DNA of 64,000 nt. Source: Phallus indusiatus (lineage: Eukaryota; Basidiomycota; Agaricomycetes; Phallales; Phallaceae). How positions within the stretch are numbered: position 1 is the first letter of the stretch; every line of letters starts with the position of its first letter. The stretch lies in assembly GCA_027605045.1 (NCBI GenBank), contig JAQFWX010000042.1:62001-126000 (forward strand), written 5' to 3'. The position numbers and the translations under genes are program-made. Below the pieces are notes generated by a model. The model worked only from the letters and a program-made list of their open reading frames with translations, was not told where the DNA came from and ran no database searches. This document shows, in pieces, positions 22,033 to 43,902 of the stretch.

Positions 22033-22898
22033 TGTCAAGTACCGATATCCGGGAACGGTAATAGATACTGTAATGTATTTTAGTCGCTGAGTATAACACC
22101 AATAACTGTCACCGTTGGTTGACGACAATCAGGACTTGGCCTCAACCTATAAGAGGTTGTGCCGCGACAGTCTTCTTCAGGGTTTGTCCTGACGTTCGTC
22201 ACGAGCGTCGAGTTCGTCAAGGACGTTACGGATATGTGCGTTCCGAGCTTCGAGAGTCGCGAGCTGTATCTCGTATTGAATGATATCAAGCTCAACGATA
22301 ATGAAGAAAGCTTTGAGATGTAACTCTCGACAACGACGGATGGCTTCCGTCGTTGCAAGTCTCGAGGAACGATCTCGACGTTCAATGATGAAGAGAGTAA
22401 GAGAAAAGAGAGTTTTATAGAGATATCGAACTACGTTCGATATTAAGTCTGAAGAACTATCTACGTGTATGCTAGGGTTTATATATACGTCAGATAAATA
22501 ATTCTAGCTCAGTTCGAAATAGATTCGAACTAGAGAAATGTAAACAAGTCGTGAGATTCGTAAGTTACATCAATATATGCAGGGTATGATGTCTCATGTG
22601 ATGAACATGAGGTGTGCAGGGATAAGAGCTGTGCATACATGGACCTACGTTCGTCATCTATGATCTCATAACCGGAACGTGCGTGGAATATTCTAGAAAG
22701 GCCTTTCCGCGGGTGTTCCAGGAGTTAAGAGAGACGGGTACGTCTCTATTCGAGTTGCGAGGTAAATTGAGATGACTGAACGCGAAGGTCATATCGTGAG
22801 TGACATAAGCGAGATAAGATTACGGAGATAAACGGTAAATGATCGGATATGAATTATGTAACGTTACCGGAAGTGATGTCATGAATCGGATCATGACA
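22033..22898 (-). repeat. element A 3' LTR
   Basis: 866 bp, TGTCA...TGACA ends. It matches the 5' LTR at 43036-43902 throughout, except for a missing C near 22530 and a T/C difference near 22857. Confidence 0.95.
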
Positions 22899-22912
22899 GT
22901 ATCCCCTCTTTA
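22899..22912 (-). other. element A polypurine tract
   Basis: Read on the minus strand, the bases directly ahead of the 3' LTR are purine-rich (TAAAGAGGGGATAC), the expected plus-strand DNA primer site of an LTR retrotransposon. Confidence 0.7.
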
Positions 22913-22961
22913 GGGACGAGCCCCCGAGTCCATTACGTAGTTCCGAGTTTAAACGAGTGAT

Positions 22962-23042
22962 CACGTGAGTTTGAGCACGTGACAGAAAAAAATAATGTGA
23001 TCACGTGTGTTGACGCGTGATAAATTTAGATAAGTGACGCGT
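22962..23042 (+). promoter_or_regulatory. E-box and ACGCGT cluster ahead of the antisense gene
   Basis: Three CACGTG palindromes (22962-22967, 22976-22981, 23002-23007) and two ACGCGT motifs (23012-23017, 23037-23042) lie within 81 bp. The cluster is between the 3' LTR of element A and the antisense gene's ATG at 23195. CACGTG is the classic bHLH site and ACGCGT the MluI cell-cycle box of fungi. That these act as the antisense gene's promoter is inference from position. Confidence 0.45.
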
Positions 23043-23341
23043 TACGCGAGACGCGAGTTATCGATCACAAGTGACTGTGACATATCGTGACAACCTGAAA
23101 CGCACTTGGTGAAAAAAGTGCGGTCTTCTTCTTTTCGCGACCACAACCCAGCATAAACCTCTTATCTTTAACGGCTTTTGTCTATATTCTATCCATGTCT
23201 TCCTCCCGCGACTTTACAATCGATCCCAGCCTCCTCGACGCCGTCCCAAAATCCTTCGAGGAACGAGTTCAGTGGGCGCTCAAAAATAAGCGTCTGTATA
23301 CTTTGCCGGATCAAGAAGAGGTCCAAGCACGCGTTCGAAAC

Positions 23342-23738
23342 TGTCAGGGTACGCTACCGCGTCCCCTCATTTTTCCTTATTTATTATCATCGGTATATAT
23401 CTATTTCTACCTTATTTATATTTCCCGTGCATTACCTCTACCTTCCGTTTATTCTCTCCGTCCATATTTCACCTTCTCTACTCGCGCGCGTTGCGCGCTC
23501 GTACACGGCGTGATGCCCGTGACATCACGTCGCTTAGGCTCGGCTTGGGCGCCTGGCACTTAGCTGTGTCAGGGCCGCACGCCGCGTCGTCGTTTTATGT
23601 ATATAGTAGCTGTACCTAGAGTGAGGGTCCCTAAGCTTGTTCTCTTAGGATCCCCTCCCTCTAGGTGAGTAGTATAGTTATCCTCCAATATATTACTTAG
23701 GATCCCCTCCCTCTAGTGTGAGCTGAGTAGCCCTAACA
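23342..23738 (+). repeat. element B1 5' LTR
   Basis: 397 bp, starts TGTCAGGG and ends CCCTAACA (imperfect inverted ends). By eye it is identical to the 3' copy at 35395-35791. It contains a 21-bp direct repeat beginning CTTAGGATCC at 23644 and again at 23696. Confidence 0.96.
23600..23643 (+). promoter_or_regulatory. element B1 TATA box and predicted RNA 5' end
   Basis: TATATA at 23600-23605 lies 33 nt upstream of AAGCTTGTTCT (23633-23643). Those 11 nt are the exact reverse complement of the site just past the LTR (23741-23751). In Tf1-type elements the first 11 nt of the RNA pair with the primer site, so 23633 is the predicted transcription start and the beginning of R. Confidence 0.7.
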
Positions 23739-23740
23739 GT

Positions 23741-23751
23741 AGAACAAGCTT
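23741..23751 (+). other. element B1 self-primer binding site (Tf1 type)
   Basis: AGAACAAGCTT, 2 nt (GT) past the 5' LTR, is perfectly complementary to 11 nt inside the LTR. Complementarity stops after 11 nt on both sides. No tRNA 3'-end complement starting TGG is present at the LTR border. Confidence 0.75.
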
Positions 23752-23903
23752 CTACTCGCAGACTGGTCGTTTCTATCGACACTCGTTATTGAAAAATCGC
23801 GCTCGACACCGACTATCGCAGTGTCGTATTTTCCCTTCGAGTCCCGTCTATAACCGACCCCTCTGCTCCGTCCTAAAACCCCTTTTTCCTTTCTCTCTCT
23901 CTC

Positions 23904-25214
23904 ATGGATTCCTCACCCCCACCCTCTGCACCCCAAATCGTCACCCTCGAAGATGTGGCGACTATTATTATGCGGCAATTCGCGGAAATGGATGCCCGCA
24001 TGGCAAGACAGGAATCCCAGGCCTCACAGATGATTGAGGTCCTACGGAGCATCCGAGACGCGGCTAGAGCTGCTCCTACCCAAAACACCCCTGTTGACGA
24101 CGCGTCCTCGTCTGGACAACCACCGGCTCCTGAGCATCACGCCAGTTCACGCTCTTCCCGAAATACCCGACCTGCTGTACCTCCTTCGTTCGACGGAGAT
24201 CGCTCCAAGGGTCGTGCCTTCTGGAACACTGTCGAGTTTTACATGAGTATATGCAGTCGCGACTTCGAGACTGATGAACTCAAGATCGGCTGGGCGATGT
24301 CGTACATGAATGAAGGCCGCGCCCTTACCTTCAGCGAATCCATGCTGAAAAGGTATCAAAGAGGAGAGAAGCCTTTCGCCGACTGGAATGCCTTTCGGGA
24401 ACGGTTCAAGACGGATTTCTTTCCACAATCCGAGCAAGAAGACGCCATCAACACCCTCTATTCCAACCGTTACATCCAAGGCAACAGGACTGTAGAAGAG
24501 TATGTAGACGCCTTCCGTGTGCTCATTGAGCATGCTGGCTTTACGGAAGGTCTCGCCATTAACACGTACTTTCGTAATGGTCTAGACCCGGTAATTGCGT
24601 CTCTGGTAGCGACGATGAAGGACCGACCCGCGCTTCATGACTACGAGGGCTGGATCAGGCAAGCACGCATGTTTGACATGGACAGGCGTTCCAACGAGGC
24701 TTTCACCGCTGCTCGCCGTCGACTCATAGGCTCTGGAACGACTCAGACAAATCCCGCGATAGTCTCCATTAACCGACCTCGTCCCACCCCTTTAACGTCG
24801 TACCAGATTCCCCAGATCCAGAGGAGGCCCCTTGCCCCTTCCTATCAGGCTCCTGCCTACCCCCCTCCCAGACCTATACCCCAGGTCATGCCCGCACTGC
24901 CCCCTAGACCTGCGGTTTCTGCTCCTGCACCCCAGATTAGACATGACCCGATGGACGTTGATGCTGCCCGTCGACGCGTAGGCCCAGAATCGACCAGGTG
25001 TCATCGCTGTGGAGCAACAGGCCACTGGGCTCGCGAATGCCCTCGCGCATATGACATTCGGTATCTTCAACCTGATGAATTGGACGACAATATCGCACAC
25101 CTGTTGGCTCAGAAAGACGCGTTAGAAGCCCAGGCACGCGGCGACTCTGCTCTGACCCAGGGTGAGACTGTAGCTGCAACAGAGGTAGAGGATTTTCAAA
25201 ACGGCGACGAGTGA
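23904..25214 (+). CDS. element B1 gag
   Basis: The 436-residue Gag forms the particle and binds the RNA. It has a short coiled-coil-prone N-terminus, a retrotransposon-gag core (about 85-260), a proline-rich linker, and one CCHC zinc knuckle with C366, C369, H374 and C379. It ends in TGA overlapping the first codons of pol in the -1 frame. This copy looks intact and differs from the B2 copy at only scattered residues. Confidence 0.95.
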   Translation: MDSSPPPSAPQIVTLEDVATIIMRQFAEMDARMARQESQASQMIEVLRSIRDAARAAPTQNTPVDDASSSGQPPAPEHHASSRSSRNTRPAVPPSFDGDRSKGRAFWNTVEFYMSICSRDFETDELKIGWAMSYMNEGRALTFSESMLKRYQRGEKPFADWNAFRERFKTDFFPQSEQEDAINTLYSNRYIQGNRTVEEYVDAFRVLIEHAGFTEGLAINTYFRNGLDPVIASLVATMKDRPALHDYEGWIRQARMFDMDRRSNEAFTAARRRLIGSGTTQTNPAIVSINRPRPTPLTSYQIPQIQRRPLAPSYQAPAYPPPRPIPQVMPALPPRPAVSAPAPQIRHDPMDVDAARRRVGPESTRCHRCGATGHWARECPRAYDIRYLQPDELDDNIAHLLAQKDALEAQARGDSALTQGETVAATEVEDFQNGDE

Positions 25215-26580
25215 CAGATGCACCCTCGTTGCCGACATCTAATAGATTCGACATTTTGTACATAGATCGCGAACAAAATGACATTTCTGATTCGAATCTA
25301 ACTACCCCTGCTGCATCCCCTGATAAACCCAAGGAACCGCCTCCACCTGCTACACGCTCTGTTTCCATTCCATGTATGCTGTCGCCTTCTCAACGTCGCG
25401 CATTGCCAAGCGAATACCGACTTGCAGCTACCGCTGGTACGCAGAAGCTGGAGATCCCGGTAGAACTACAGAGTGTTGACACTGGAGCCCTGCTGCACAG
25501 CAAGGCCATGCTAGACACTGGGGCTAGCGGTATGTTCCTCGATCGCGACTTTGTCGACAAACATCGGCTTCCCTCCGTACGTCTTGCAAAACCAATTCCC
25601 GTGTTTAATGTCGACGGTACGCCCAACCATGCTGGCTCTATCACCCACGTCGTCGACCTGGTTGTTCGCTTTCGGGATCACTCTGAACGCACCTTGTTCG
25701 CCGTTACCTCGCTCAAGTATCCCGTCTTGTTTGGACTGCCGTGGTTCAAGGCCCACAATCCCATCATAGATTACACGACTGGCCAAGTAGAATTTATGCG
25801 CTGCAGCCCTAGTTGCTGATCCTGCGCTCCACGCTGGCCAGCGGGTAAGCTCTCTAAACGTGCGTTCCAACAGATCCGACGCGCACCTCTACCAGAGCTC
25901 GACAACACTGAAGCCGATGACCCCGACATACCAGACCTGGTCGACGTCGAGTCTGAAATTGAGGAAGGTGATCGACTGTTCGCGATATCAATGTTGCCCG
26001 ACGAGCCCGACACTTACCGCATATATGCCACCGAGACCATCTCTCAACGACTGGCCCAGGCCCATGCCAACAACACGGACGCACCAACTCCTAAGGGTTT
26101 TCGGGATATCGTGCCAGAGATGTTCCACGACTTTGCCGATATTTTCTCGAAGGAGTCGTTCGACTCGTTGCCGCAGTCGAAGAAGTGGGATCACCCAATA
26201 GAGCTTGTGCCAGGTTCTGAACCCAAGTCGTGCAAGATCTACCCGTTGTCGCCCAACGAGCAAGCCGAGTTAGATGCGTTTCTGGAAGAAAACCTCGCGT
26301 CTGGACGAATCCGGCCTTCCAAGTCACCAATGGCGTCCCCGGTCTTCTTCATCAAGAAGAAGGATGGTTCTCTCCGTCTCATCCAAGATTATCGCGCGCT
26401 GAATGCTATGACGATTAAGAACCGCTACCCGCTGCCTCTGATCTCAGAGCTCATCAACAAGCTGCAAGGTGCCCGGTACTTCACCAAGCTAGACGTGCGC
26501 TGGGGCTACAACAATGTGCGGATAAAGGAAGGAGACGAGTGGAAGGCTGCTTTCCGCACCAATCGGGGCCTTTTCGAGCC

Positions 26581-26977
26581 TGTTAGGGCTACTCAGCTCA
26601 CACTAGAGGGAGGGGATCCTAAGAGATATATATTGGGAAAAATACTAACTACTCACCTAGAGGGAGGGGATCCTAAGAGAACAAGCTTAGGGACCCTCAC
26701 TCTAGGTACAGCTACTATATACATAAAACGACGACGCGGCGTGCGGCCCTGACACAGCTAAGTGCCAGGCGCCCAAACCGAACCTAAGCGACGTGATGTC
26801 ACGGGCATCACGCCGGGTACGAGCGCGCAACGCGCGCGAGTAGAGAAAGTGAAATAGGGACAGAACAAGGAAACGGAGAGTGAAAGCAAAATATGGAAAT
26901 GATAAATAAAATAGAGAGGAAGTGATGCCGATGATAATAAATAAGAAAATGAGAGACGGCGGTAGCGTACCCTGACA
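26581..26977 (-). repeat. element B2 3' LTR
   Basis: 397 bp, by eye identical to 32406-32802. The polypurine tract (minus strand GAAGGGGGGATGG, about 26978-26990) lies directly ahead of it. Confidence 0.96.
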
Positions 26978-26988
26978 CCATCCCCCCT

Positions 26989-29900
26989 TCAACGAGGCGG
27001 CGTCCCGACGCCTGTAGCTTCGACTAATGACGCCTGTAACTTTGAGAAGTCGAACCGAGGGCGACGATGGAAAAGAAGACCATTTATCGAGCGTGGCGCA
27101 CTCGGATGTTCGCGGTGGAATTCCTTAATGAGATCCGGGGCTGCAATATTTGACTCGGGTTCCCACTGATCGTGCTCGGGACCATAGCCTTCCCAACGCA
27201 CCTTATACTCGAGTCGTCTCCGGAAGACACGACTGTCTAAGATCCGTTCCACGACATAGTGTTCACCATCGTCTCTGACCTCAGGAGGGGGGGGGGCCTT
27301 GACGCGACGACCCGGGATTGTATCTTCAACCTTTGGACGCAACTTCCCGACGTGGAACACTGGGTGAAGCCTTGACATCGACAGTGGTAAACGCAGCCTA
27401 TATGCGTGCGATCCGACCTTGCTGACTATCGGGAAAGGCCCCAGGTACCGATGCGATAACTTGGCGGAGGGCCTGGTGGTACGAATGTCGCTCGAATCGA
27501 GGTATACCTTGTCGCCAACCTTGTATTCAGGTGCCGGGATGTGTTTCCGATCGTAGTACTTGGCCATCTCGTCCTTCGACTTGGCTATGGCGGCCTTGGC
27601 TTCCTCTATCGTCGACTCCATGCGTGTCTTGAACTCGTTGACAGATTCGATCTTGGAGTCGGCAACCAGCGGTTCGAATCCCATACGAGGATGTCGTCCA
27701 GTGTCGAGCTCAAACGGTGTCGCGCGCGTAGCTGAGTGTACGTGGTTGTTATATGCGAACTCAGCCAAGGGCAGTATCTGGTCCCAGTCGTCCTGTCGCT
27801 CGGAGGTGAAAAGTCGAAGGTACTGTTCGACTTCTGCGTTGACACGCTCTGTCTGACCATCGGTTTGAGGATGATACGCCGTCGAGGGTGCAAGCCGTAT
27901 GCCAAGGAGTCTAGAAAGCTCCTGTGTGAAGCGGGACGCGAACTGGGGGCCCCTGTCAGAGATCACCTTCATGGGGAGACCATGGAGCTTCCAGACATGT
28001 TGAAGGTACAGACGGGCCAGACCTGTGGCGTCAAGTGTCGTAAATGTCGGCACGAAATGAACCCGTTTGGTGAGAGAGTCGACGACCGAGAGGATCGCGT
28101 CGAAACCGTTGGATTCCGGTAGTTCCACGATGAAGTCGACTGAGATGTGTTCCCAGGGTCGACTTGGCACTTCTGTGGGTCGGAGAAGGCCATAGGGAGC
28201 ATGACGAGACGGTTTCGTACGTAGACACATGTCGCAGGCCTCGACATAGCGTTGGACATACCTGGAGACACCTGGCCACCAGAAGGTGCGCGAAACGAGT
28301 TCAAGAGTCTTGAAACGACCCGGGTGACCACCGAGTTTGGTGTCGTGGTGTCTGGAAAGGATTTTCCGACGCAACTCGTCCACATTTGGCACGTAAACCT
28401 TGCCGCGATAGTAGAGGAGGTCCTGGTCTTCAAACCATTCCGACGAGTGAGCTGAACGACCACCCAGTGCACGAAGTGTTGCAACGGCTTTAGACACACT
28501 ATCCTCGACCTTGCCTTCCCGATTGGCCTTGCGAATCTGGCGTAAAAGGTCCTCCTCCTCCCCCTTAAGACGGAATGTTTGCAGAGCATTGATTGCAAAC
28601 ATTTCGGGTCGGATTAGAGTGACGCCACGATTGTCGTCTTTTCCCGAGCCATGATCTGGGCGACGGGATAAGCCATCAGGTTTACCCATCGACTTACCCG
28701 GTATATGCTGCAGAGTAAAGTCGAATCGTGAGAGATATACTGACCATCTAGCTTGACGACGATTTAGGTTGCGCGCGGACATGAAATATTCAAGATTCTT
28801 GTGATCAGTCCGTATGTCGATAGGGTGGGATGCGCCTTCGAGAAAGTGTCGCCATTCCTCTAAGGACCGTATGATAGCCAGCATCTCCTTGTCGTGAATC
28901 TCGTAATTGCGTTCAACGGGACTGAGGGCCTTCGAGAAGAACGCAACAGGATGCCATTTGCCGTCCTCGTTCGACAACTGTGAAAGAACCGCGCCTGTTG
29001 CAAAGTCGGAGCTGTCTGCTTCAACCCGGTAAGGATTAGTGGGGTTGGGAATGAGAAGAATGGGAGCAGAGGTAATCGACGACTTCAGAGTATCGAAAGC
29101 ATGCTGACAAGTGTCGGACCAGACGAAGGGTGTATCCTTCTTGGTTAACCCGAACATGGGATTGGCAATACGCGCGAAATCCTTGATAAACCGACGGTAG
29201 AAGTTGGCGAAGCCCAGGAAGGACTGGACCTCAGTGACGTTCTTCGGGATGGGCCAGTCTCTGACACCCGAGACTTTCGCGGGATCCATCTCGACTGTGT
29301 TCTCGGAAATGACGACACCTAAGTATTCGATCTTAGTCCGACGGAACTCACATTTCTCTGCCTTGAGATAAAGCTTGTGCTCACGAAGACGTTCGAGAAC
29401 GCGTCGAGTGACCTGGTCGTGCTGTTCCCGATCCCGAGTGTAGATGAGGATGTCGTCGATATAGACGGCAACGACACCCTCTGAGATCATGTCTTCAAAG
29501 ATCTCGTTCATCATCGTCTGGAAGGTGGCAGGACTGTTAGTGAGACCAAAGAACATCACCAAGGGCTCGAAAAGGCCGCGGTTGGTGCGGAAAGCAGCCT
29601 TCCACTCATCTCCTTCCTTTATCCGCACGTTGTTGTAACCCCAGCGCACGTCCAGCTTGGTAAAGTATCGGGCACCTTGCAATTTGTTGATGAGCTCTGA
29701 GATCAGGGGCAGCGGGTAACGGTTCTTAATCGTCATAGCATTCAATGCCCGATAGTCCTGGATGAGACGAAGAGAGCCATCTTTCTTCTTAATGAAGAAT
29801 ACCGGGGACGCCATGGGCGACTTGGAGGGTCGGATTCGTCCAGACGCAAGGTTCTCTTCTAGAAACGCGTCCAACTCGGCCTGCTCGTTGGGTGACAACG

Positions 29901-30933
29901 GGTAGATCTTGCACGACTTGGGCTCAGAACCTGGCACAAGCTCTATCGGGTGATCCCATTTCTTCGATTGCGGCAACGAGTCAAATGACTCCTTCGAAAA
30001 GATGTCGGCAAAGTCGTGGAACATCTCTGGCACGATATCCCGAAAGCCCTTGGGAGCTGGTGTGTCTGCGTTGTTGGCGTGGGCCTGAGCCAGTCGCTGG
30101 GAGATGGTCTCGGTGGCATATATGCGGTGAGTGTCGGGCTCGTCGGGTAGCATGGATATCGCGAACAGTCGATCACCCTCTTCAATCTCAGACTCGACGT
30201 CGACCAGGTCTGGTATGTCAGGATCATCGGCCTCAGTGTCGTCGAGCTCTGGCAGAGGTGCGCGTCGGATCTGTTGGAACGCGCGCTTAGAGAGCTTACC
30301 CGCTGGCCAGCGTGGGGCACAAGACCGACAACTGGGGCTGCAGCGCATGAACTCTACTTGACCAGTTGTGTAGTCTATGACGGGATTGTGAGCCTTGAAC
30401 CACGGTAGTCCAAACAGGACGGGATACTTGAGTGAGGTAACGGCGAACAAGGTGCGTTCCGAGTGTTCCCGAAAGCGAACAACGAGGTCGACAACGTGGG
30501 TGATAGAGCCAGCGTGGTTGGGCGTACCGTCGACATTAAACACGGGAATGGGTTTGGCAAGACGTACGGAGGGAAGCCGATGTTTGTCGACAAAGTCGCG
30601 GTCGAGGAACATACCGCTAGCCCCGGTGTCCAGCATGGCCTTGCTGTGCAGCAGGGCCCCGGTGTCAACACTCTGTAGCTCTACTGGAATCTCTAGCTTC
30701 TGCGTGCCTGCGGTAGCTGCGAGTCGGTATTCCTTTGGCAATGCACGACGTTGAGAAGGCGACAGCATACATGGGGTAGAAACAGAACGTGTGGCAGGTG
30801 GAGGCGATTCTTTGGGTTTGTCAGGGGATGCAGCAGGGGTAGTTAGATTCGAATCAGAAGTGTCATTTTGTTCGCGATCTATGTACAAAATGTCGAATCT
30901 ATTAGATGTCGGCAACGAGGGTGCATCTATCAC
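26989..30933 (-). CDS. element B2 pol: protease, RT, RNase H, integrase, chromodomain
   Basis: 1314 residues without a stop. Domains in order: aspartic protease with DTGAS near residue 102; reverse transcriptase with YIDD near 490; RNase H (TDHKNLEYF); integrase with an HHCC zinc region (HHDTKLGGH...CDMC) and a DDE core (VDFIVELP, SDRGPQFASRF, and the Glu of GQTERVNAEVEQ); and a C-terminal chromodomain (about 1220-1280, YKVRWEGYGPEHDQWEPESN). Chromodomains steer integration to marked chromatin in chromovirus lineages. The frame opens at a GTG overlapping the gag stop in the -1 frame, so a frameshift or reinitiation is needed. I see no canonical slippery heptamer there. Confidence 0.97.
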   Translation of the reverse strand: MIDAPSLPTSNRFDILYIDREQNDTSDSNLTTPAASPDKPKESPPPATRSVSTPCMLSPSQRRALPKEYRLAATAGTQKLEIPVELQSVDTGALLHSKAMLDTGASGMFLDRDFVDKHRLPSVRLAKPIPVFNVDGTPNHAGSITHVVDLVVRFREHSERTLFAVTSLKYPVLFGLPWFKAHNPVIDYTTGQVEFMRCSPSCRSCAPRWPAGKLSKRAFQQIRRAPLPELDDTEADDPDIPDLVDVESEIEEGDRLFAISMLPDEPDTHRIYATETISQRLAQAHANNADTPAPKGFRDIVPEMFHDFADIFSKESFDSLPQSKKWDHPIELVPGSEPKSCKIYPLSPNEQAELDAFLEENLASGRIRPSKSPMASPVFFIKKKDGSLRLIQDYRALNAMTIKNRYPLPLISELINKLQGARYFTKLDVRWGYNNVRIKEGDEWKAAFRTNRGLFEPLVMFFGLTNSPATFQTMMNEIFEDMISEGVVAVYIDDILIYTRDREQHDQVTRRVLERLREHKLYLKAEKCEFRRTKIEYLGVVISENTVEMDPAKVSGVRDWPIPKNVTEVQSFLGFANFYRRFIKDFARIANPMFGLTKKDTPFVWSDTCQHAFDTLKSSITSAPILLIPNPTNPYRVEADSSDFATGAVLSQLSNEDGKWHPVAFFSKALSPVERNYEIHDKEMLAIIRSLEEWRHFLEGASHPIDIRTDHKNLEYFMSARNLNRRQARWSVYLSRFDFTLQHIPGKSMGKPDGLSRRPDHGSGKDDNRGVTLIRPEMFAINALQTFRLKGEEEDLLRQIRKANREGKVEDSVSKAVATLRALGGRSAHSSEWFEDQDLLYYRGKVYVPNVDELRRKILSRHHDTKLGGHPGRFKTLELVSRTFWWPGVSRYVQRYVEACDMCLRTKPSRHAPYGLLRPTEVPSRPWEHISVDFIVELPESNGFDAILSVVDSLTKRVHFVPTFTTLDATGLARLYLQHVWKLHGLPMKVISDRGPQFASRFTQELSRLLGIRLAPSTAYHPQTDGQTERVNAEVEQYLRLFTSERQDDWDQILPLAEFAYNNHVHSATRATPFELDTGRHPRMGFEPLVADSKIESVNEFKTRMESTIEEAKAAIAKSKDEMAKYYDRKHIPAPEYKVGDKVYLDSSDIRTTRPSAKLSHRYLGPFPIVSKVGSHAYRLRLPLSMSRLHPVFHVGKLRPKVEDTIPGRRVKAPPPPEVRDDGEHYVVERILDSRVFRRRLEYKVRWEGYGPEHDQWEPESNIAAPDLIKEFHREHPSAPRSINGLLFHRRPRFDFSKLQASLVEATGVGTPPR

Positions 30934-32240
30934 TCGTCGCCGTTTTGAAAATCCTCTACCTCTGTTGCAGCTACAGTCTCACCCTGGGTCAGAGCGGAGT
31001 CGCCACGTGCCTGGGCTTCTAACGCGTCCTTCTGGGCCAACAAATGTGCGATATTGTCGTCCAATTCGTCGGGCTGGAGATACCGAATGTCGTATGCGCG
31101 AGGGCATTCACGAGCCCAATGGCCTGTTGCTCCACAACGATGACATCTGGTCGACTCTGGGCCTAAGCGTCGACGAGCAGCGTCAACGTCCATCGGGTCA
31201 TGTCTAACCTGGGATGTAGGAGCAGAAGCCGCAGGTCTAGGAGGCAACGCGGGCACGAGTTGAGGTGCTGGCCTGGGAGGTGGGTAAGAAGGAGCTTGAT
31301 AGGAAGGGGCAGGGGGCCTCCTCTGGATCTGGAGGGTCTGATACGACGGAAAAGGGTTGGGACGGGGTCGATTAATGGGGACGATCGCGGGATTTGTCTG
31401 AACCGTCCCAGAGCCTACGAGTCGGCGACGAGCGGCAGTGAAGGCCTCGTTAGCACGCCTGTCCATGTCAAACATGCGTGCTTGCCTGATCCAGCCCTCG
31501 TAGTCGTGAAGTGCGGGTCGGTCCTTCATCGTCGCTACCAAAGATGCAATTGTCGGGTCTAAACCATTACGAAAGTACGTGTTAATGGCGAGTCCTTCCG
31601 TAAAGCCAGCGTGCTCAATGAGTACGCGGAAGGCGTCTACATACTCTTCTACAGTCCTGTTGCCTTGGACGTAGCGGTTGGAATAGAGGGTGTTGATGGC
31701 ATCCTCTTGCTCGGATTGTGGAAAGAAATCCGCCTTGAATCGTTCCCGAAAGGCATTCCAGTCCACGAAGGGCTTCTCTCCTCTTTGATACTTTTTCAGC
31801 ATAGATTCGCTGAAGGTAAGGGCGCGGCCTTCATTCATGTACGACATCGCCCAGCCGATCTTGAGTTCATCAGTCTCGAAGTCACGACTGCATATACTCA
31901 TGTAAAACTCGACGGTGTTCCAGAAGGCACGACCCTTGGAGCGATCTCCGTCGAACGAAGGAGGTACAGCAGGTCGGGTATTTCGGGAAGAACGTGAACT
32001 GGCTTGATGCTCAGGAGCCGGTGGTTGTCCAGGTGAGGACGCGTCGTCAACAGGGGTGTTTTGGGTAGGAGCGGCTCTAGCCGCGTCTCGGATGCTCCGT
32101 AGGACCTCAATCATCTGTGAGGCCTGGGATTCCTGTCTTGCCATGCGGGCATCCATTTCCGCGAATTGCCGCATAATAATAGTCGCCACATCTTCGAGGG
32201 TGACGATTTGGGGCGCAGAGGGTGGGGGTGAGGAATCCAT
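30930..32240 (-). CDS. element B2 gag
   Basis: 436-residue Gag, the same layout as in B1: gag core, proline-rich linker and one CCHC knuckle (CHRCGATGHWAREC). It is intact, and its stop overlaps the start of the pol frame by 4 nt. Confidence 0.96.
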   Translation of the reverse strand: MDSSPPPSAPQIVTLEDVATIIMRQFAEMDARMARQESQASQMIEVLRSIRDAARAAPTQNTPVDDASSPGQPPAPEHQASSRSSRNTRPAVPPSFDGDRSKGRAFWNTVEFYMSICSRDFETDELKIGWAMSYMNEGRALTFSESMLKKYQRGEKPFVDWNAFRERFKADFFPQSEQEDAINTLYSNRYVQGNRTVEEYVDAFRVLIEHAGFTEGLAINTYFRNGLDPTIASLVATMKDRPALHDYEGWIRQARMFDMDRRANEAFTAARRRLVGSGTVQTNPAIVPINRPRPNPFPSYQTLQIQRRPPAPSYQAPSYPPPRPAPQLVPALPPRPAASAPTSQVRHDPMDVDAARRRLGPESTRCHRCGATGHWARECPRAYDIRYLQPDELDDNIAHLLAQKDALEAQARGDSALTQGETVAATEVEDFQNGDE

Positions 32241-32392
32241 GAGAGAGAGAGAAAGGAAAAAAGGTTTTTAGGACGGAGCAGAAGGGTCGATTATAGACGG
32301 GACTCGAGGGGAAAATACAACACTGCGATAGTCGGTGTCGAGCGCGATTTTTCAATAACGAGTGTCGATAGAAACGACCAGTCTGCGAGTAG

Positions 32393-32403
32393 AAGCTTGT
32401 TCT
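32393..32403 (-). other. element B2 self-primer binding site
   Basis: On the minus strand AGAACAAGCTT, 2 nt past the 5' LTR, is exactly complementary to AAGCTTGTTCT inside the LTR (minus strand, 32513 to 32503). TATATA begins 33 nt upstream of that segment (minus strand from 32546). The arrangement is the same as in B1. Confidence 0.75.
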
Positions 32404-32405
32404 AC

Positions 32406-32802
32406 TGTTAGGGCTACTCAGCTCACACTAGAGGGAGGGGATCCTAAGAGATATATATTGGGAAAAATACTAACTACTCACCTAGAGGGAGGGGATCCTA
32501 AGAGAACAAGCTTAGGGACCCTCACTCTAGGTACAGCTACTATATACATAAAACGACGACGCGGCGTGCGGCCCTGACACAGCTAAGTGCCAGGCGCCCA
32601 AACCGAACCTAAGCGACGTGATGTCACGGGCATCACGCCGGGTACGAGCGCGCAACGCGCGCGAGTAGAGAAAGTGAAATAGGGACAGAACAAGGAAACG
32701 GAGAGTGAAAGCAAAATATGGAAATGATAAATAAAATAGAGAGGAAGTGATGCCGATGATAATAAATAAGAAAATGAGAGACGGCGGTAGCGTACCCTGA
32801 CA
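32406..32802 (-). repeat. element B2 5' LTR
   Basis: 397 bp, identical to the 3' LTR. Relative to the B1 LTR, the region from about position 20 to 150 (U3) is strongly diverged, whereas the R/U5 half is almost unchanged. Confidence 0.96.
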
Positions 32803-35380
32803 GAGCCTCTGGTAATGTTCTTTGGTCTCACTAACAGCCCTGCGACCTTTCAGACGATGATGAACGAGATCTTCGAGGACATGATCTCGGAAGGTGTTGT
32901 TGCCGTCTACATCGACGACATTCTCATCTACACTCAGAGTCGGGAACAGCATGACCAGGTCACCCGACGCGTTCTCGAACGTCTTCGTGAGCACAAGCTT
33001 TATCTCAAGGCAGAGAAATGTGAGTTTTGTCGGACCAAGATCGAGTACCTAGGCGTCGTCATTTCCGAGAACACAGTTGAGATGGATCCCGCGAAAGTCT
33101 CGGGTGTCAGAGACTGGCCTATCCCGAGGAACGTCACTGAGGTTCAGTCCTTCCTGGGTTTCGCCAACTTTTATCGTCGGTTTATCAAGGACTTTGCATG
33201 TATTGCCAATCCCATGTTCGGGTTAACCAAGAAAGACACTCCCTTCGTCTGGTCCGACACCTGTCAGCATGCCTTCGATACTCTGAAGTCATCAATTACC
33301 TCTGCCCCTATCCTCCTCATTCCCAACCCTGCTAATCCTTACAGAGTCGAGGCAGATAGTTCCGACTTTGCAACAGGTGCGGTTCTCTCACAGTTGTCGA
33401 ACGATGACAGTAAATGGCACCCAGTCGCATTCTTCTCGAAGGCCCTCAGCCCTGTTGAACGCAATTATGAGATCCACGACAAGGAGATGCTCGCTATCAT
33501 ACGATCTTTGGAGGAATGGCGACACTTCCTCGAAGGCGCGTCTCACCCTATCGACATACGGACTGATCACAAGAATCTCGAGTATTTCATGTCCGCGCGT
33601 AACCTCAATCGTCGTCAAGCCAGATGGTCAGTATATCTCTCACGATTCGACTTTACTCTGCAGCATATACCGGGTAAGTCGATGGGTAAACCTGATGGCC
33701 TGTCCCGTCGGTCAGACCATGGCTCGGGAAAGGATGACAATCGTGGCGTCACTCTAATCCGACCCGAAATGTTTGCAATCAATGCTCTGCAAACATTCCG
33801 TCTTAAAGGGGAGGAGGAGGACCTGCTACGCCAGATTCGCAAGGCAAATCGGGAAGGCAAGGTCGAAGACAGCGTTTCCAAAGCCGTTGCAACACTTCGT
33901 GCACTGGGCGGTCGTTCAGCTCACTCGTCGGAATGGTTTGAAGACCAGGACCTCCTCTATTATCGCGGCAAGGTTTACGTGCCAAACGTCGACGAGTTGC
34001 GTCGGAAAATCCTCTCCAGACACCACGACACCAAACTCGGTGGTCACCCGGGTCGTTTCAAGACTCTCGAGCTCGTTTCGCGCACCTTCTGGTGGCCAGG
34101 TGTCTCTAGGTATGTCCAACGCTATGTAGAGGCCTGCGACATGTGTCTACGTACGAAACCGTCTCGTCATGCTCCCTATGGCCTTCTCCGACCCACAGAG
34201 GTGCCAAGTCGACCTTGGGAACACATCTCGGTCGACTTCATCGTGGAGCTGCCAGAATCTAACGGTTTCGACGCGATCCTCTCTGTCGTCGACTCTCTCA
34301 CCAAACGGGTTCATTTCGTGCCGACATTTACGACACTTGACGCGACAGGTCTGGCCCGTCTGTACCTCCAACATGTCTGGAAGCTCCATGGTCTCCCCAT
34401 GAAGGTGATCTCTGACAGAGGCCCCCAGTTTGCGTCCCGCTTCACGCAGGAGCTTTCTAGGCTCCTTGGCATACGGCTTGCACCCTCTACGGCATATCAT
34501 CCTCAAACCGATGGTCAAACAGAGCGCGTCAATGCAGAAGTCGAGCAGTATCTTCGACTTTTCACCTCGGAACGACAGGACGACTGGGACCAGCTGCTGC
34601 CCATGGCTGAGTTCGCATACAACAACCATGTACACTCAGCCACGTGTTCGACACCTTTTGAACTCGACACTGGACGACATCCTCGCATGGGATTCGAACC
34701 GCTGGTTGCCGACTCGAAGATCGAATCTGTCAACGAGTTCAAGACACGTATGGAGTCGACAATAGAGGAAGCCAAGGCCGCTATAGCCAGGTCGAAGGAC
34801 GAGATGGCCAAGTACTACGATCGGAAACACGTCCCGGCACCTGAATACAAGGTTGGCGATAGTGTATATCTCGATTCGAGCGACATTCGTACCACCAGGC
34901 CCTCCGCCAAGTTATCGCATCGGTACTTGGGGCCTTTTCCGATAGTCTGCAAGGTCGGGTCGCACGCATACAAGCTGCGTTTACCACTGTCGATGTCAAG
35001 ACTTCACCCAGTGTTCCATGTCGGGAAGTTACGTCCCAAGGTTGAAGATACAATCCCGGGTCGTCGCGTCAAGGCTCCCCCACCTCCGGAGGTCAGAGAT
35101 GACGGTGAGCACTACGTCGTGGAACGGATTTTGGACAGTCGGGTGTTCCGGAGACGACTCGAATATAAAGTGCGTTGGGAAGGCTATGGTCCCGAGCATG
35201 ATCAGTGGGAACCTGAGTCGAATATTGCAGCCCCAGATCTCATTAGGCAGTTCCACCGTGAACACCCGAGTGCGCCGCACTCGATAAATGGTCTCCTTTT
35301 CCATCGTCGCCCTCGGTTCGATTTCTCCAAGTTGCAAGCATCATTAGTCGAGGCTACAGGCGTCGGGACGCCGCCTCGTT

Positions 35381-35394
35381 GAAGAGGGGGGTGG
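35381..35394 (+). other. element B1 polypurine tract
   Basis: GAAGAGGGGGGTGG directly ahead of the 3' LTR, overlapping the end of pol; the expected plus-strand primer site. Confidence 0.75.
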
Positions 35395-35791
35395 TGTCAG
35401 GGTACGCTACCGCGTCCCCTCATTTTTCCTTATTTATTATCATCGGTATATATCTATTTCTACCTTATTTATATTTCCCGTGCATTACCTCTACCTTCCG
35501 TTTATTCTCTCCGTCCATATTTCACCTTCTCTACTCGCGCGCGTTGCGCGCTCGTACACGGCGTGATGCCCGTGACATCACGTCGCTTAGGCTCGGCTTG
35601 GGCGCCTGGCACTTAGCTGTGTCAGGGCCGCACGCCGCGTCGTCGTTTTATGTATATAGTAGCTGTACCTAGAGTGAGGGTCCCTAAGCTTGTTCTCTTA
35701 GGATCCCCTCCCTCTAGGTGAGTAGTATAGTTATCCTCCAATATATTACTTAGGATCCCCTCCCTCTAGTGTGAGCTGAGTAGCCCTAACA
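35395..35791 (+). repeat. element B1 3' LTR
   Basis: 397 bp, by eye identical to the 5' LTR at 23342-23738. It is followed by the target duplication GAAAC and then the resumed antisense gene of element A. Confidence 0.96.
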
Positions 35792-37038
35792 GAAACGTTG
35801 AAGACGACGCTGACCTGGAGATCGTTGAGATGCTCCAGAAGAAGTACGAGAAAGAGTACGAGGAGAAACGAGCTGCATTGGCGGCAGAGAAGTTGCGGAA
35901 GCAAAAGGAGGAGGAGGAGAGAAAGGCGCGTGAAGCGGAGGAGCAGAGAAAGAAGGAAGAGGAGAAGAAAAGAGTGGAGGAAGAGAAACAACGGGAGATA
36001 GAGCGCGTTCGCGCTAAGATGATGGAGAGGTACAGGAAGGAGAACCCTGAGAAAGCAAAGGTGAGTTTTCTCTAGTTTTTTGATTTCTCGTGATCTGACT
36101 GTCACTAGTCAGTTTCGTCAGTGGGTAAATCGGCCCTAGCGTCGTCCAAACGTCCGCGGGAACCTTCTGACGACGAGAACGGCGACGATTCCGATGAAGA
36201 CGATATTCAGGAGCTCCCGCCTCCTTCCAAAAAGACAAAAACGTCGGGCCCTTCCTCCGCCTCTCGCGACGGGAGCGTCGCTATCATGGGTCTCATTCGC
36301 GAGCCCCCCTGCGAGACCTGTCGCCACAAGGAAAAGCCCTGCCATAACCAGGTTGGGCTTTCCATCAAACATTCGGTCTGTTACGAATGCAAGGTTGGCA
36401 AGATCGCTTGCCCGGACAAGGCCTCGCGAAAGGCGGAAGAGGAGCGACAAAAACAAAAAGAACAGGCCTCCAAACCGAAACCCAAACGGGTATACAGGTC
36501 TAAGGCGCGGAAAGCGTCATCGAGTACGCTGGTGGTCGAATCCGACGATGAAAATGAGGGATCGATTGCCCAGGCCATCCTGGAGGGGTCGAAGCTACTG
36601 GCTAGCGCGATTGAGAGGGCAGGTCGGAATTGCCGCGATGGACTGTCGTCCATCGCAAATGAAATTGCTATTATTGCACGCAATATGCCGTCGCAAGGTG
36701 CGACTCCTCAGCCCGAGTACAAGTCGCCAACGCCCATGAGATGGTCCCCATCGTTGGAGGGCCTTCCAGGACCCAAGACCCTGCAAGTCCATCCAGACGA
36801 TTCGGATCGGTACGTGGCGTACCATTTCGAGAAGGCGCGAATTAGGGACAAGAAGGCGCGATTGGCGAGGGAAGCCGAAGAATCGATGAGAGATGTTGAC
36901 GAAATCGGTGGAATGGGAGTTGGAAGTCCCAACGTTGATAAAGGCAAGGGAAAGGCGAGGGAAGAGAGTGGGGAAAATATAGGAGAAGGCTCCGGGGAAG
37001 AAGAAGAAGAGGGAGGAGAACAAAATCCGCAAGTATAA

Positions 37039-37321
37039 CGGACAAAAGTAGAGTAGAAAAGAAAGGACAATATCTAGTTAATATCTTGTATGTAGAATGA
37101 CCGTTGTAGAACTTAGCCAAAAAATGGCTGTACCAATATAATGTAGTTTTCTTTTGTTTTAAATTTTAACGCGAAGTAACGGAAAATGCAAAGGATAGTG
37201 AAAGAAAAATATTCCGTGAGAGAAAGAGGGAGAAAGAGAAGAAACGAAGTTAAAATCATGAAAACGGTGAAAGAACGAGCGTTGGAGAGCAAACAATCAA
37301 TACCATAACGTATCATACCAA
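37039..37321. other. spacer between the antisense gene and pol of element A
   Basis: AT-rich 283 bp where the plus-strand antisense gene and the minus-strand pol converge. It probably holds both polyadenylation regions; no coding signal is seen. Confidence 0.5.
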
Positions 37322-40300
37322 TTATGTACGGCTTATGACATTCCAATTAGGACCTGGTTTATCCGGATATTTTCTGTGAAAGTCTTCGACTAGTTCGCTA
37401 GCATTTTCGAGTTCTGTAGCGATGAGCCAAGAAGACTCTTCATCAGTTCCGTCATAACCTAGCCATTTTACCAAGTACAGTAACGGTACTGCACGACGTC
37501 GATCGATTTTAGAATCAAGTATCGACTCTATTTCATATTCGAGGTCGCCTTCAATCTCGACAGGAGCTGGAGGGTCTTGAACACGTCCAGGGATAGTATT
37601 CTCTGTATGCGGCTCGAGCATCGACAAGTGAAACACTGAATGAACTGAACGATAATCGTTAGGCAATCTAAGTGTTCTAGTAACGTCATTAGGCTTAGCA
37701 ATAATTTCAAATGGGCCTAAGTATTTTGCTGCGAGCTTTTTAGAAGGTCTTGTTGTCGAGAAGAATTCGGCTTTGACGTAGGCTTTGGTCCCTATATTAA
37801 AAAGAGGTGGTTTAGAACGACGTTCGTCTGCTGGTCCTTGATAGCGTTTTTGAGCTAGTTTGATTTGTTCCTTAAGTTCTTCATGAATTTCTTCGAGCTT
37901 GTTAACAAACGACTCTGCTCGAGAAGATGTTAGTTCAACGTTGTCGCGTATTGTGAGACTAGGGTGATATCCTTTGTTAGCGAAGAATGGAGATATACCC
38001 GTAGTAGCACTAGCTGCGTTGTTGAATGCAAATTCTGCAAGAGGAAGCAAATCGGACCAATCGTCTTGCTGGTAGTTGCAATATATGCGGATGTATTGCT
38101 CCAATGTCTGATTAGTTCTTTCCGTTTGTCCATCACCTTCGGGGTGATATCCGGAAGTGAAATGAAGGTTCATATTAAGGGCTTTGCCCAAAGAGCGAAA
38201 GAAATGAGAGACAAACTCTGAACCTCTGTCTGACGTTACATGGGATGGAACACCATGCTTCGAAAAGACATGTAAAACAAAGAGGCTGGCGAGTTGTTGC
38301 GATGAAATGGTATCGTGAGTTGGAATGAAAATAGCGTATTTCGTTAGCCGGTCAACAACGACAAGAATTGAAGTATAACCACTGGAAGCAGGTAAATGCT
38401 CAATGAAGTCCATAGAGATCGAATCCCAAGGACGTATAGGTACGGGAAGTTGTTTAAGAAATCCGTATGGTTTATGCCGCTGTGATTTACCACGAGGACA
38501 GTCGATACAAGAGCTACAAAACTCTTTAACCATATCACGAAGGTTTGGCCAGACGTATTCGCGACGTATAAGTTCAAGGGTCTTGGTCTGTCCGAAATGT
38601 CCAGATACGGGATGATCATGTTTATACTGAAGGACACGAAGTCTGAGGTCTTCAGCTGCCGGAACGAAGATACGACCATCACATCTAAGGAATCCGCGAT
38701 CATCCACAGTCCAACGAGGATTGGAACGATCGTGTAAATGAAGTTGCGCGACTGGGTCATGAGGAAGCGCAGTGAGAATGTCGTCATGAAGCTTGTTAAT
38801 GTCCATGATAATAGCGCTACGGAGAATAGGAGCATGAAGAATGGTAGCATTTAACGACACCTTTAATTGTTCTGAAGTGAAAATCGGCTTCAAATTTTGC
38901 GGGTTAACGTCGGCGTAGTCGCTTATCCCCTCTTTAAGGTAGACGTCCCATCGTCTAGTGAGAGAATCAGGTTTAGTACCCAAGCGACCAGGACGGAAAT
39001 TAATATTAAGGTTAAATTGAGATAAAAATTCGGACCATCTCGCTTGACGGCGAGTAAGTGTTTTTGTTGTAGAGAAATAAGTGAGATTTTTGTGATCCGT
39101 GAAGACGTCAACAGGAAAAGTAGATCCTTCAAGGTAATGACGCCATTTTTGAAAAGCTTCAAATATCGCGAGTAATTCTTTGTCGTGAACATCGTAATTG
39201 AGTTCTGGAGGTGAAAATGTACGGGAATGAAAAGCGATTGGGTGTAATTCGTTTGTCGCATCGTATTGTGATAATATAGCTGCGAGAGCATAGTCAGACG
39301 CGTCCGTCTCGACTATAATAGGCCGGTCTGGTACCCAGTGAGCTAACACTGGTGCAGTTGTAAAAGACTTTTTCAAAGTGTCGAATGCGCGTTGGCAATC
39401 GTCGGTCCAGTTCCAAGGTGCACCTTTACGCGTAAGTCGAGTGAGAGGTATAGTTATATGCGAGTATTGATCAATAAAACGACGATAGAAGTTTGCAAAT
39501 CCAAGAAATGATTGAATATCCTTAACTTTGCGCGGAATAGGCCAGTCAATAATCTGTTTAACTTTGCCGGTATCCATCGCAAGTCCAGATGAATCCAAAA
39601 CATATCCAAGAAACTCTACACGATCCTTATGAAATTCGCATTTCTTCGGCGACGCATATAGGTTGTGTTGCCGGAGACGTTTGAGAACTTCTTTGACGTG
39701 TTGTTTATGCGAGGAAATGTCGTCTGAGTAAATGAGGATATCATCGAGATAAACGATGACGCAATGATCGAGTAGGTCGCCTAAAATATCGTTCATGAAG
39801 CGTTGGAAAGCAGCGGGAGCGTTGGATAATCCAAACGGCATGACAAGCCATTCAAAAGATCCATAACGGGTTCTGAACGCTGTCTTCCATTCATCACCTT
39901 CCGCGATACGCACAAGGTGATATGCGTGCTTCAAATCGATCTTGGTATATATGCGGGCTTTTCGAGGAGCGTCTAGTAAATCCGAGATAAGTGGTAACGG
40001 GTACTTATCCTTTTTACTAATTTTGTTGAGTCCGCGAAAATCCACACAAAGACGTAAGGAACCATCTTTCTTTTTGACAAATAAGACTGGAGCGCCATGA
40101 GGAGAATTGGAATGGCGAATAAAACCAGTCTTCAAATTATCATCGATAAATTCTCGGAGAGATTCTAATTCAAGGGGTGAAAGAGAATAGATGGGTCCTA
40201 GAGGAGGAGTTTTGCCATCTTCGAGTTCAATCTTCAAATCGTATGATCGATGTGGCGCCAGAGTGTCGGCTTTGACACCACTAAATACGTCTGCAAATTC

Positions 40301-40918
40301 TCGGTAGTCTTCAGGTATAGGCATCTCGTTAAAGTCGGGATCCACAGCTGCGGAATAAGACTTGACTTTTGGATCGGTGACTGTTAACCGAAATACAACA
40401 GAGCCAGAAGCATTGGCTGCGTGAAGAAAAGCTGCGGCGTTAACAAGAGATACTGAAGGACGAGAAGTGGCGGTTGGAATAGCTGAGGCATTTCGCGTGT
40501 TTGATTGAGTAGCGGAAAAGGACGATTCGGCCTTGTCAGAAGATAATCATATGTTGTCTGGGAATTTGATACTGCCCAATACCCAGTTAATCGACGGATT
40601 ATAGCGGGTGAGCCAGTCGTATCCTAAGACGAAATCACAATTAGCTTCCAACTTCGTAACGAGAAAAGAAATCGATAAAGTGTCACTACTAGGAAAAGTT
40701 ACATTTAAAACTATCTTCCGAGTGATAAAAGAATTTGTAGTCCCATCAATAAGAAATAAAGGAATAGGGTCGATGGTCTGAAAAGGAAGGGCATATTTAT
40801 CTACTATTTTTTCATTTATAAAACAGTGCGTCGATCCCGAGTCGACCATGCACTTAAAAGGAGAAGGAGAAAAAGGAACAGAAAGAGGAATCATAAAAGA
40901 ATCAGAAAAAACAGGCAT
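37322..40918 (-). pseudogene. element A pol with one in-frame TGA
   Basis: The frame covers an aspartic protease with DSGSTHCF (from 40918), a TGA at 40547-40549, then an uninterrupted 1007-codon run (40345-37322; the frame is open from 40546). That run holds reverse transcriptase (YLDD), RNase H (TDHKNLTYF), integrase (HVTSDRGSEF, GQTERTNQTLEQ) and a C-terminal chromodomain (YLVKWLGYDGTDEESSW). The frame is the same on both sides of the TGA, so this is a single nonsense change rather than a designed boundary. Upstream, the frame stays open to the end of gag, fitting a Gag-Pol fusion made by -1 frameshifting. An alternative reading, in which the TGA separates two natural proteins, is less likely. 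Confidence 0.9.
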
Positions 40919-40992
40919 AGACCGTAAAACTACTTTACTAGTACCACCGACTACGGCTACGTTGGCGCGTACTGAACCTTCCCGACTATCAT

Positions 40993-41004
40993 CTAGTTTT
41001 TGGA
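40993..41004 (-). promoter_or_regulatory. element A gag/pol -1 frameshift site
   Basis: The last gag codons read TCC AAA AAC TAG on the minus strand. Sliding back one base reads CAA AAA CTA and enters the open pol frame. The run C-AAA-AAC resembles the classic A-AAA-AAC slippery site and lies immediately before the gag stop. Confidence 0.6.
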
Positions 41005-42957: not shown

Positions 42958-43022
42958 GATGAAAGAAAGAAAAGATATAACCGAGACGTAAAGTGTGCGA
43001 TAAAAAGAAGAGCTGCCGGGTG

Positions 43023-43033
43023 AGACTTAATAT
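43023..43033 (-). other. element A self-primer binding site (Tf1 type)
   Basis: On the minus strand ATATTAAGTCT lies 2 nt (GT) past the 5' LTR. It is the exact reverse complement of AGACTTAATAT inside the LTR (minus strand 43453 to 43443). The match is exactly 11 nt, as in the B elements although the sequence is unrelated. Confidence 0.75.
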
Positions 43034-43035
43034 AC

Positions 43036-43902
43036 TGTCAAGTACCGATATCCGGGAACGGTAATAGATACTGTAATGTATTTTAGTCGCTGAGTATAAC
43101 ACCAATAACTGTCACCGTTGGTTGACGACAATCAGGACTTGGCCTCAACCTATAAGAGGTTGTGCCGCGACAGTCTTCTTCAGGGTTTGTCCTGACGTTC
43201 GTCACGAGCGTCGAGTTCGTCAAGGACGTTACGGATATGTGCGTTCCGAGCTTCGAGAGTCGCGAGCTGTATCTCGTATTGAATGATATCAAGCTCAACG
43301 ATAATGAAGAAAGCTTTGAGATGTAACTCTCGACAACGACGGATGGCTTCCGTCGTTGCAAGTCTCGAGGAACGATCTCGACGTTCAATGATGAAGAGAG
43401 TAAGAGAAAAGAGAGTTTTATAGAGATATCGAACTACGTTCGATATTAAGTCTGAAGAACTATCTACGTGTATGCTAGGGTTTATATATACGTCAGATAA
43501 ATAATTCTAGCTCAGTTCGAAATAGATTCCGAACTAGAGAAATGTAAACAAGTCGTGAGATTCGTAAGTTACATCAATATATGCAGGGTATGATGTCTCA
43601 TGTGATGAACATGAGGTGTGCAGGGATAAGAGCTGTGCATACATGGACCTACGTTCGTCATCTATGATCTCATAACCGGAACGTGCGTGGAATATTCTAG
43701 AAAGGCCTTTCCGCGGGTGTTCCAGGAGTTAAGAGAGACGGGTACGTCTCTATTCGAGTTGCGAGGTAAATTGAGATGACTGAACGCGAAGGTCATATCG
43801 TGAGTGACATAAGCGAGATAAGATTACGGAGATAAACGGTAAATGATCGGATATGAATTACGTAACGTTACCGGAAGTGATGTCATGAATCGGATCATGA
43901 CA
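43036..43902 (-). repeat. element A 5' LTR
   Basis: 867 bp, TGTCA...TGACA ends, pairing with the 3' LTR at 22033-22898 and followed by the target duplication CTTAT (43903-43907). The open frame inside it (about 43388-43083) has no ATG and is not considered a gene. Confidence 0.95.
43443..43490 (-). promoter_or_regulatory. element A TATA box and predicted RNA 5' end
   Basis: On the minus strand TATATATAAA (43490 to 43481) has its TATAAA 33 nt upstream of 43453, where the 11-nt self-primer segment begins. The spacing equals that in the B elements and marks 43453 as the likely transcription start. Confidence 0.65.

Follow-up and report, generated by a model that had tools for sequence, protein, structure and literature searches.

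The window analysed here, a 64,000-nucleotide stretch of contig JAQFWX010000042.1 of Phallus indusiatus, contains element A, a Ty3/Gypsy chromovirus which carries, antisense between pol and its 3' long terminal repeat (LTR), a gene with one intron whose alleles are many-fold more diverged than the gag and pol of the elements that carry them. With moderate confidence, this gene can be read as an exchangeable antisense cassette for a Zn2Cys6-type regulator, the old alleles of which would be kept by balancing or arms-race selection. All copy counts are from one genome (67.2 Mb in 206 contigs), in which the element-A family is labelled F1 and its gene copies are those of the window and of loci L009-L020.

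The sequence-only reading had placed a two-exon gene on the strand opposite to element A, between pol and the 3' LTR, with 446 codons without the nested element B1 and an intron of 48 nt. The coordinates (49 + 88 + 309 codons) and the sister copies agree with this, as the uninterrupted exon 1 of L010, L016 and L017 likewise has 137 codons. The unit consists of the following parts:
23101..23122, plus strand, inverted repeat CGCACTT-N8-AAGTGCG, 5' of the antisense ATG
23195..23341, plus strand, exon 1, part one, from the ATG to the B1 insertion
35797..36060, plus strand, exon 1, part two (charged helix)
36061..36108, plus strand, GT-AG intron, 48 nt
36109..37038, plus strand, exon 2 including the stop
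36310..36411, plus strand, six-cysteine Zn2Cys6-like cluster

Pol sequence of element A (at least 93% identity; 40 of 61 candidates scored) is found at 15 loci, of which 12 are nearly full length, one is split into two parts and two are fragments; 13 of these loci have the antisense gene. One of the two loci with no recorded gene, C173:398355, is a 361-bp pol fragment (the fragment alone was read), while the other, C195:745904, shows no such antisense frame in the 2.8 kb read beyond pol (L029), its pol being cut near the 3' end by another element. The intron is kept in all 13 copies inside element A, and both exons are uninterrupted in nine; of the other four, the window is interrupted by B1 and L010 by an insertion of about 850 bp in exon 2, and L014 and L020 have frameshifts, which are perhaps sequencing errors. 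Exon 2 is a single open frame in 11 of the 13 copies, with protein identities of 54-100%, and when exon 2 was searched against the genome in six frames, 21 matches were obtained (two each in L010 and L020), none with an internal stop. In the 10 copies measured for exon 1 (window, L014 and L020 excluded; exon-1 dS, the synonymous divergence, is saturated in some pairs), the length from ATG to donor is always divisible by three (411, 417 or 432 nt), and the introns have 48, 49, 50 or 51 nt. Exon 2 is under purifying selection, with a ratio of nonsynonymous to synonymous divergence (dN/dS) of about 0.2. Conservation of the frame in other copies of element A, which had been set beforehand as the test, was thus found, and the selected antisense gene with its intron is real. 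Its antisense position and its intron imply a separate transcript, likely from an antisense promoter of its own. That the frame is due to chance or is decaying, as a functionless fragment captured from the host, is hardly credible: relatives outside the elements make capture possible, but the open and variable exon 2, the conserved intron, the dN/dS and the presence of the gene in three element families all speak against it, the pattern of substitutions and indels already contradicts it, and it was dropped.

Divergence in the gene is out of proportion to that of the rest of the element. For exon 2, mean dN is 0.214 and mean dS 0.979 (ratio 0.22; 11 copies, 55 pairs; L010 and L020 excluded), against 0.003 and 0.074 for pol (10 copies, 45 pairs; L009, L016, L020 and C195 excluded) and 0.008 and 0.099 for gag (6 copies, 15 pairs), as estimated by the Nei-Gojobori method with Jukes-Cantor correction, in which high dS values are rough. 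The exon-2 dS exceeds the pol dS in 34 of the 36 pairs having both values, the exceptions being L014-L015 (both 0.005) and L017-L018 (0.023 in exon 2 vs 0.051 in pol). Nine colinear copies, compared in windows of 150 bp, have a mean identity of 94.7-98.1% in the LTR and 97-99.6% in pol, but of only 68-88% between the ATG region and the far end of the antisense unit; low gag values in these windows are ascribed to L018, which partly lacks gag. When seven distinct copies are compared in 50-bp steps, identity drops about 70 bp before the ATG and recovers about 210 bp after the antisense stop, which leaves 70 bp to the end of pol. The divergent block comprises nothing but the antisense unit. The element copies themselves are young, as the two LTRs within a copy are 99.65-100% identical in eight copies (in one over 600 bp only), and they are separate insertions, as no pair among eight copies shares flanks (a few hundred bases read); the same five bases stand at both ends in all seven copies with both ends read. 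The 13 F1 copies hold at least 10 distinct alleles.

These alleles are recombined within the gene. In a self-written PHI-type statistic (two-state informative sites, 10 neighbours), none of 500 shuffles was as low as the observed value for either exon 2 (272 sites) or exon 1 (122 sites), and only one of 200 was for pol (84 sites), which therefore recombines too. Of the 27 pair-by-exon comparisons that are below 93% identity and share an identical stretch of 40 nt or more, 23 have a longest stretch that would be expected less than 0.01 times under a simple independence model. The N-terminus is of two types (SRDF.. with WALKNKR, or SRHF/SRFS.. with WALANGR or similar), as is the six-cysteine (C6) cluster (CETCRHKEK or CDSCxRKEK), and all four combinations are found. 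An antisense unit that merely mutates faster, under ordinary purifying selection and free of balancing selection, is quite unlikely as the whole explanation; the intron and the flanks inside the unit have diverged as well as the codons, and gene and pol distances are weakly correlated, both of which suit it, but pairs with similar pol dS (0.046 and 0.051) have an exon-2 dS of 0.479 and 0.023 respectively, long identical tracts lie in diverged pairs, and L017 and L018 have almost the same exon 2 while their exon 1 is 79% identical. The mosaic tracts and the spread of exon-2 dS at like pol distance (0.02 to 0.48) thus speak for old alleles being exchanged rather than for a clock that runs faster at this place, although both could be acting.

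Two further families of the same genome carry the antisense gene, placed and oriented as in element A and likewise split into two frames, namely F2 (L028, L030-L034 and L040; pol 71% identical in DNA to that of element A) and F3 (L035-L037). Between F2 alleles, exon-2 dS is 0.51-0.73 (0.044 for L030 vs L040) and pol-tail dS 0.011-0.065 (130-208 codons), and the pairwise DNA identity is 96-100% in the first 600 bp, falls to as low as 59% in the gene and returns to 99-100% past it. For F3, exon-2 dS is 0.39-0.42 between L035 and L036 or L037 and 0.057 between the latter two, while the pol-tail dS is 0.083 (L035-L036), a smaller contrast from few copies. Hypervariability thus appears to hold in at least two element families and probably in the third. 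It is unlikely that diverged cassettes entered from other element lineages or by horizontal transfer and then simply stayed, with gag, pol and LTRs homogenised by recombination that is barred to diverged DNA. The homogeneous flanks and the fairly sharp edges of the block are as such a history would leave them, but recombination continues inside the cassette, and the contrast recurs in the second family and, with few copies, in the third. Among six F2 loci compared there are three alleles (that of L028, that of L030, and one common to L031-L034), and an allele is thus not always confined to a single copy. As compared with L034, the antisense gene has single-base deletions in L031, L032 and L033, some common to several copies; these are suspected long-read errors or mark an inherited broken lineage, as some copies carry many and the same sites recur. 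Gene loss as the driver of F2 expansion was dropped, as the single-base deletions in three of these four copies are suspected long-read errors.

The encoded protein comprises, in this order, a conserved N-terminal helical motif, a charged helix, basic motifs like nuclear localisation signals, the C6 cluster and an acidic tail. The spacing first read for the window, C-x2-C-x6-C-x12-C-x2-C-x6-C, was confirmed in the sequence, and the six cysteines are invariant in all 24 aligned family members as C-x2-C-x6-C-loop-C-x2-C-x6-C with a loop of 9 to 13 residues (alignment A1 of 24 rows, excluding L010, L014, L020, L031-L033, L024 as a duplicate of L025, C45 and C140), which is the canonical spacing of Zn2Cys6 domains (PF00172). 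A search of the PDB gave three matches at E up to 10, all of them Zn2Cys6, and 14 of 16 Foldseek rows are Zn2Cys6, the other two being yeast kinetochore complexes; exon 2 of the window matched no family of weight in Pfam, NCBIfam or a single-sequence PDB search. The cluster thus points weakly to a Zn2Cys6 DNA-binding domain, with matches that are faint but one-sided, and the Zn2Cys6-like cluster of the earlier reading is supported by its spacing and, weakly, by structural and profile matches, those to the Pfam model staying below its cut-off. The long charged coiled coil of that reading was not supported. The supposed core in L017 is 75% E/K/R with 8% large hydrophobic residues, and the wider segment is hydrophobic at only 6 of 21 a/d positions in the best register; since both are so poor in hydrophobics, the segment would suit a charged single alpha-helix better. 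In database searches this helix gave compositional matches only. The product should, as judged from these motifs, be nuclear and bind zinc and DNA.

The leader of the gene contains candidate regulator sites, as inverted repeats with spacers of this kind suit dimeric Zn2Cys6 proteins. The arms CGCACTT..AAGTGCG are kept upstream of the ATG in all 13 F1 copies (spacer 7 or 8), the window has a second inverted repeat, TCACGTG-N8-CACGTGA, and three F3 copies have TGAGGAC-N6-GTCCTCA directly before the ATG, while the F2 leaders of L028 and L034 show no inverted repeat with 7-bp arms in the stretch tested. These repeats, the DNA-binding type of domain and the number of distinct F1 alleles would be in keeping with an autorepressor, each allele recognising the LTR of its own element in an incompatibility-like copy control. 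Such a role is distinctly improbable, however, as neither the two N-terminal nor the two C6 classes differ by a fixed site in LTR or leader, the F2 leaders tested lack such a repeat, and four F2 insertions hold a single allele. The matching of allele classes to LTR variants was dropped for want of any fixed site; changing LTR targets thus do not explain the allele diversity, and the likeliest object of diversification would be a protein partner or a host target.

That the gene is an accessory one, as had been proposed, agrees with its relatives elsewhere in the same genome. Seven of them (L021, L022, L023, L025, L026, L038 and L039) lie outside recognisable F1, F2 or F3 copies in the stretches read, and four are flanked by genes for P450, FAD-binding, protein kinase, GH43 and BSP-peptidase proteins and a weak F-box match. 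The intron of L021 and L022 is at the same place as in element A, and this duplicated pair is probably functional, as its dN/dS is 0.15 in exon 1 (8 changes) and 0.34 in exon 2. The proteins of F1, F2 and F3 end in a K/G/E-rich acidic tail, which the host-located L021, L022 and L038 lack. Neither gag nor pol of F1 had a tblastn match in L021-L026, and L038 and L039 matched the F2 and F3 loci within the gene only (blastn); the view of these relatives as F1, F2 or F3 remnants was dropped on the missing gag and pol matches, with L038 and L039 being just 3.0 and 2.3 kb long, in a test that covered these three families only, other or older elements lying outside it. In an unrooted tree of 21 proteins, whose long branches meet and whose order is unsure, F2 groups with L038 (98/95), and F1 together with L021, L022, L023, L025 and L026 is opposed to L038, L039, F2 and F3 (100/100), while F1 as a single group has a support of only 45/17. 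The host label needs three changes on this tree, forced by its starred branches, and transfer of the gene between host and elements, in one direction or the other, has probably happened more than once. The first 5.5 kb of C143, with L024, are 99.9% identical to a stretch within C195, with L025, and may represent an assembly duplicate or a haplotype remnant.

Element A is a Ty3/Gypsy chromovirus, as it has gag, the order reverse transcriptase (RT)-RNase H-integrase, a C-terminal chromodomain, LTRs of the form TG..CA and a 5-bp target duplication (CTTAT on either side). Its remaining features are:
22033..43902, minus strand, element A including nested B1 and B2, from LTR ends, 5-bp target duplication, and pol and gag domains
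22033..22898, minus strand, 3' LTR
43036..43902, minus strand, 5' LTR
40993..43026, minus strand, gag frame with zinc knuckle
40547..41008, minus strand, putative protease-region frame, named by position and sequence
37322..40546, minus strand, pol frame with RT, RNase H, integrase and, at its end, a chromodomain, from domain matches
23342..35791, plus strand, element B1 within exon 1, containing B2 (about 26580-32800, reverse orientation)

The antisense gene (stop at 37038) and pol (end at 37322) stand tail to tail with no overlap. B1, which is bounded by the target duplication GAAAC on both sides, is itself a chromovirus, and B2 inside it is a second element of the same kind, the arms being 92-93% complementary. 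The LTR end at 22877-22898 is a palindrome, TGTCATGA-N6-TCATGACA, with a near-identical one at a like place in F3, 5' of the antisense gene in L036 and L037, and could be an integrase or regulator site. With 40 of 209 candidates scored, the element-A LTR has at least 43 matches; the 15 pol loci do not account for so many, and solo LTRs are probably common. A gene of the window adjoining the element region encodes a DUF6535 domain, which is typical of Agaricomycetes.

With GAL4, LAC9, PPR1 and Pho7 the element-A protein shares the six-cysteine spacing and weak profile and fold matches, but its cluster lies in mid-protein behind a charged helix, is borne by a retrotransposon and scores below the Pfam cut-off. 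HBZ of human T-cell leukaemia virus 1 (HTLV-1) is a spliced antisense retroelement gene for a charged bZIP regulator. It may work by analogy like the element-A gene, as a spliced antisense gene for a charged regulator of DNA-binding type, but it is a bZIP and not a C6 protein, and no sequence relation was found. An antisense promoter is described for HTLV (PMC7264820). Plant Grande and Retand elements carry antisense accessory genes between pol and the 3' LTR (PMC7264820, PMC11963269), gene23 of Grande having its own promoter (PMC7264820), and they resemble element A in position, antisense orientation, presence in most copies and a product presumed nuclear or DNA-binding; the element-A gene, antisense between pol and the 3' LTR and present in most copies, has the features of an aORF-3R. 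Such genes of LTR retrotransposons are described as having no known function and a conservation similar to that of the other element proteins (PMC7264820), unlike the element-A gene. It had no match to TRP28 in a Pfam search, and it has an intron, whereas introns find no mention in PMC7264820 and PMC11963269. Boty elements of Botrytis, another fungal LTR element, carry the antisense gene brtn in the same position (Zhao et al. 2011, as cited in PMC7264820 and PMC8365987), a likeness by description only, and the passages on brtn in these two sources contain no statement on Zn2Cys6 or variability. The crapaud element of Podospora anserina, also a fungal LTR element, is described as having strong divergence confined to one segment too, but in the 5' half of its LTRs rather than in an antisense coding gene (PMC10787394). 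Antisense accessory genes in such a position are thus already known, while the hypervariable recombining cassette appears to be new, as searches of the open-licence PMC literature showed no LTR element described with a hypervariable antisense gene (subscription papers being outside this scope). A set of 5.8 billion proteins gave no homologue at E <= 0.001 with exon 2 of either the window or L028, or with alignment A1, and viral contigs scanned with pol gave no match; as the fungal share of both is uncertain, these results say little on distribution.

Taken together, related Ty3/Gypsy chromovirus families would possess an accessory unit that lies between pol and the 3' LTR, is transcribed antisense to the element and encodes a Zn2Cys6-type regulator that may enter the nucleus and bind zinc and DNA. 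The unit behaves as an exchangeable cassette, with old diverged alleles in nearly identical elements, recombined within the gene, probably by template switching in reverse transcription, and held by purifying selection in exon 2. The persistence of so many old alleles in young elements would be best accounted for by negative-frequency-dependent or arms-race selection on what the protein binds, be it chromatin or silencing factors of the host, or partner subunits that other copies or the host-located relatives supply. It is possible, though on balance doubtful, that the cassette is a recombining multi-allelic specificity locus, a counterpart of major histocompatibility complex, incompatibility and phage-immunity loci, whose ancient alleles balancing selection would maintain for the part of the Zn2Cys6-type protein in recognition among element copies, host-located homologues and the silencing or chromatin factors of the host.

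Several points weigh against this cassette reading. The best PF00172 score is 19.2 bits (cut-off 21; E 0.0014), for the F3 protein of L036, five other family members have E of 0.32-4.6, and exon 2 of the window itself gave no match; the AF2 model has a pLDDT of 64, and the Foldseek E values are 1.6 or worse. Transcript, protein and binding are predictions from sequence and modelled structure, and the case for balancing selection comes from a single genome. Sites in LTR and leader do not follow the allele classes, and four independent insertions share one F2 allele, three of them carrying frameshifts in the gene. Gene and pol distances have a Spearman correlation of 0.31 (p 0.07; 36 non-independent pairs), a weak correlation that leaves some room for a shared genealogy of the two.

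The finding gives a directly testable population-genetic signature, in which alleles that are old and recombine are carried by elements that are young, a pattern that recurs in related families of the genome. Should balancing selection be confirmed, retrotransposons would carry a specificity locus of their own, and the host-located homologues would then provide a ready system for element-host or element-element recognition.

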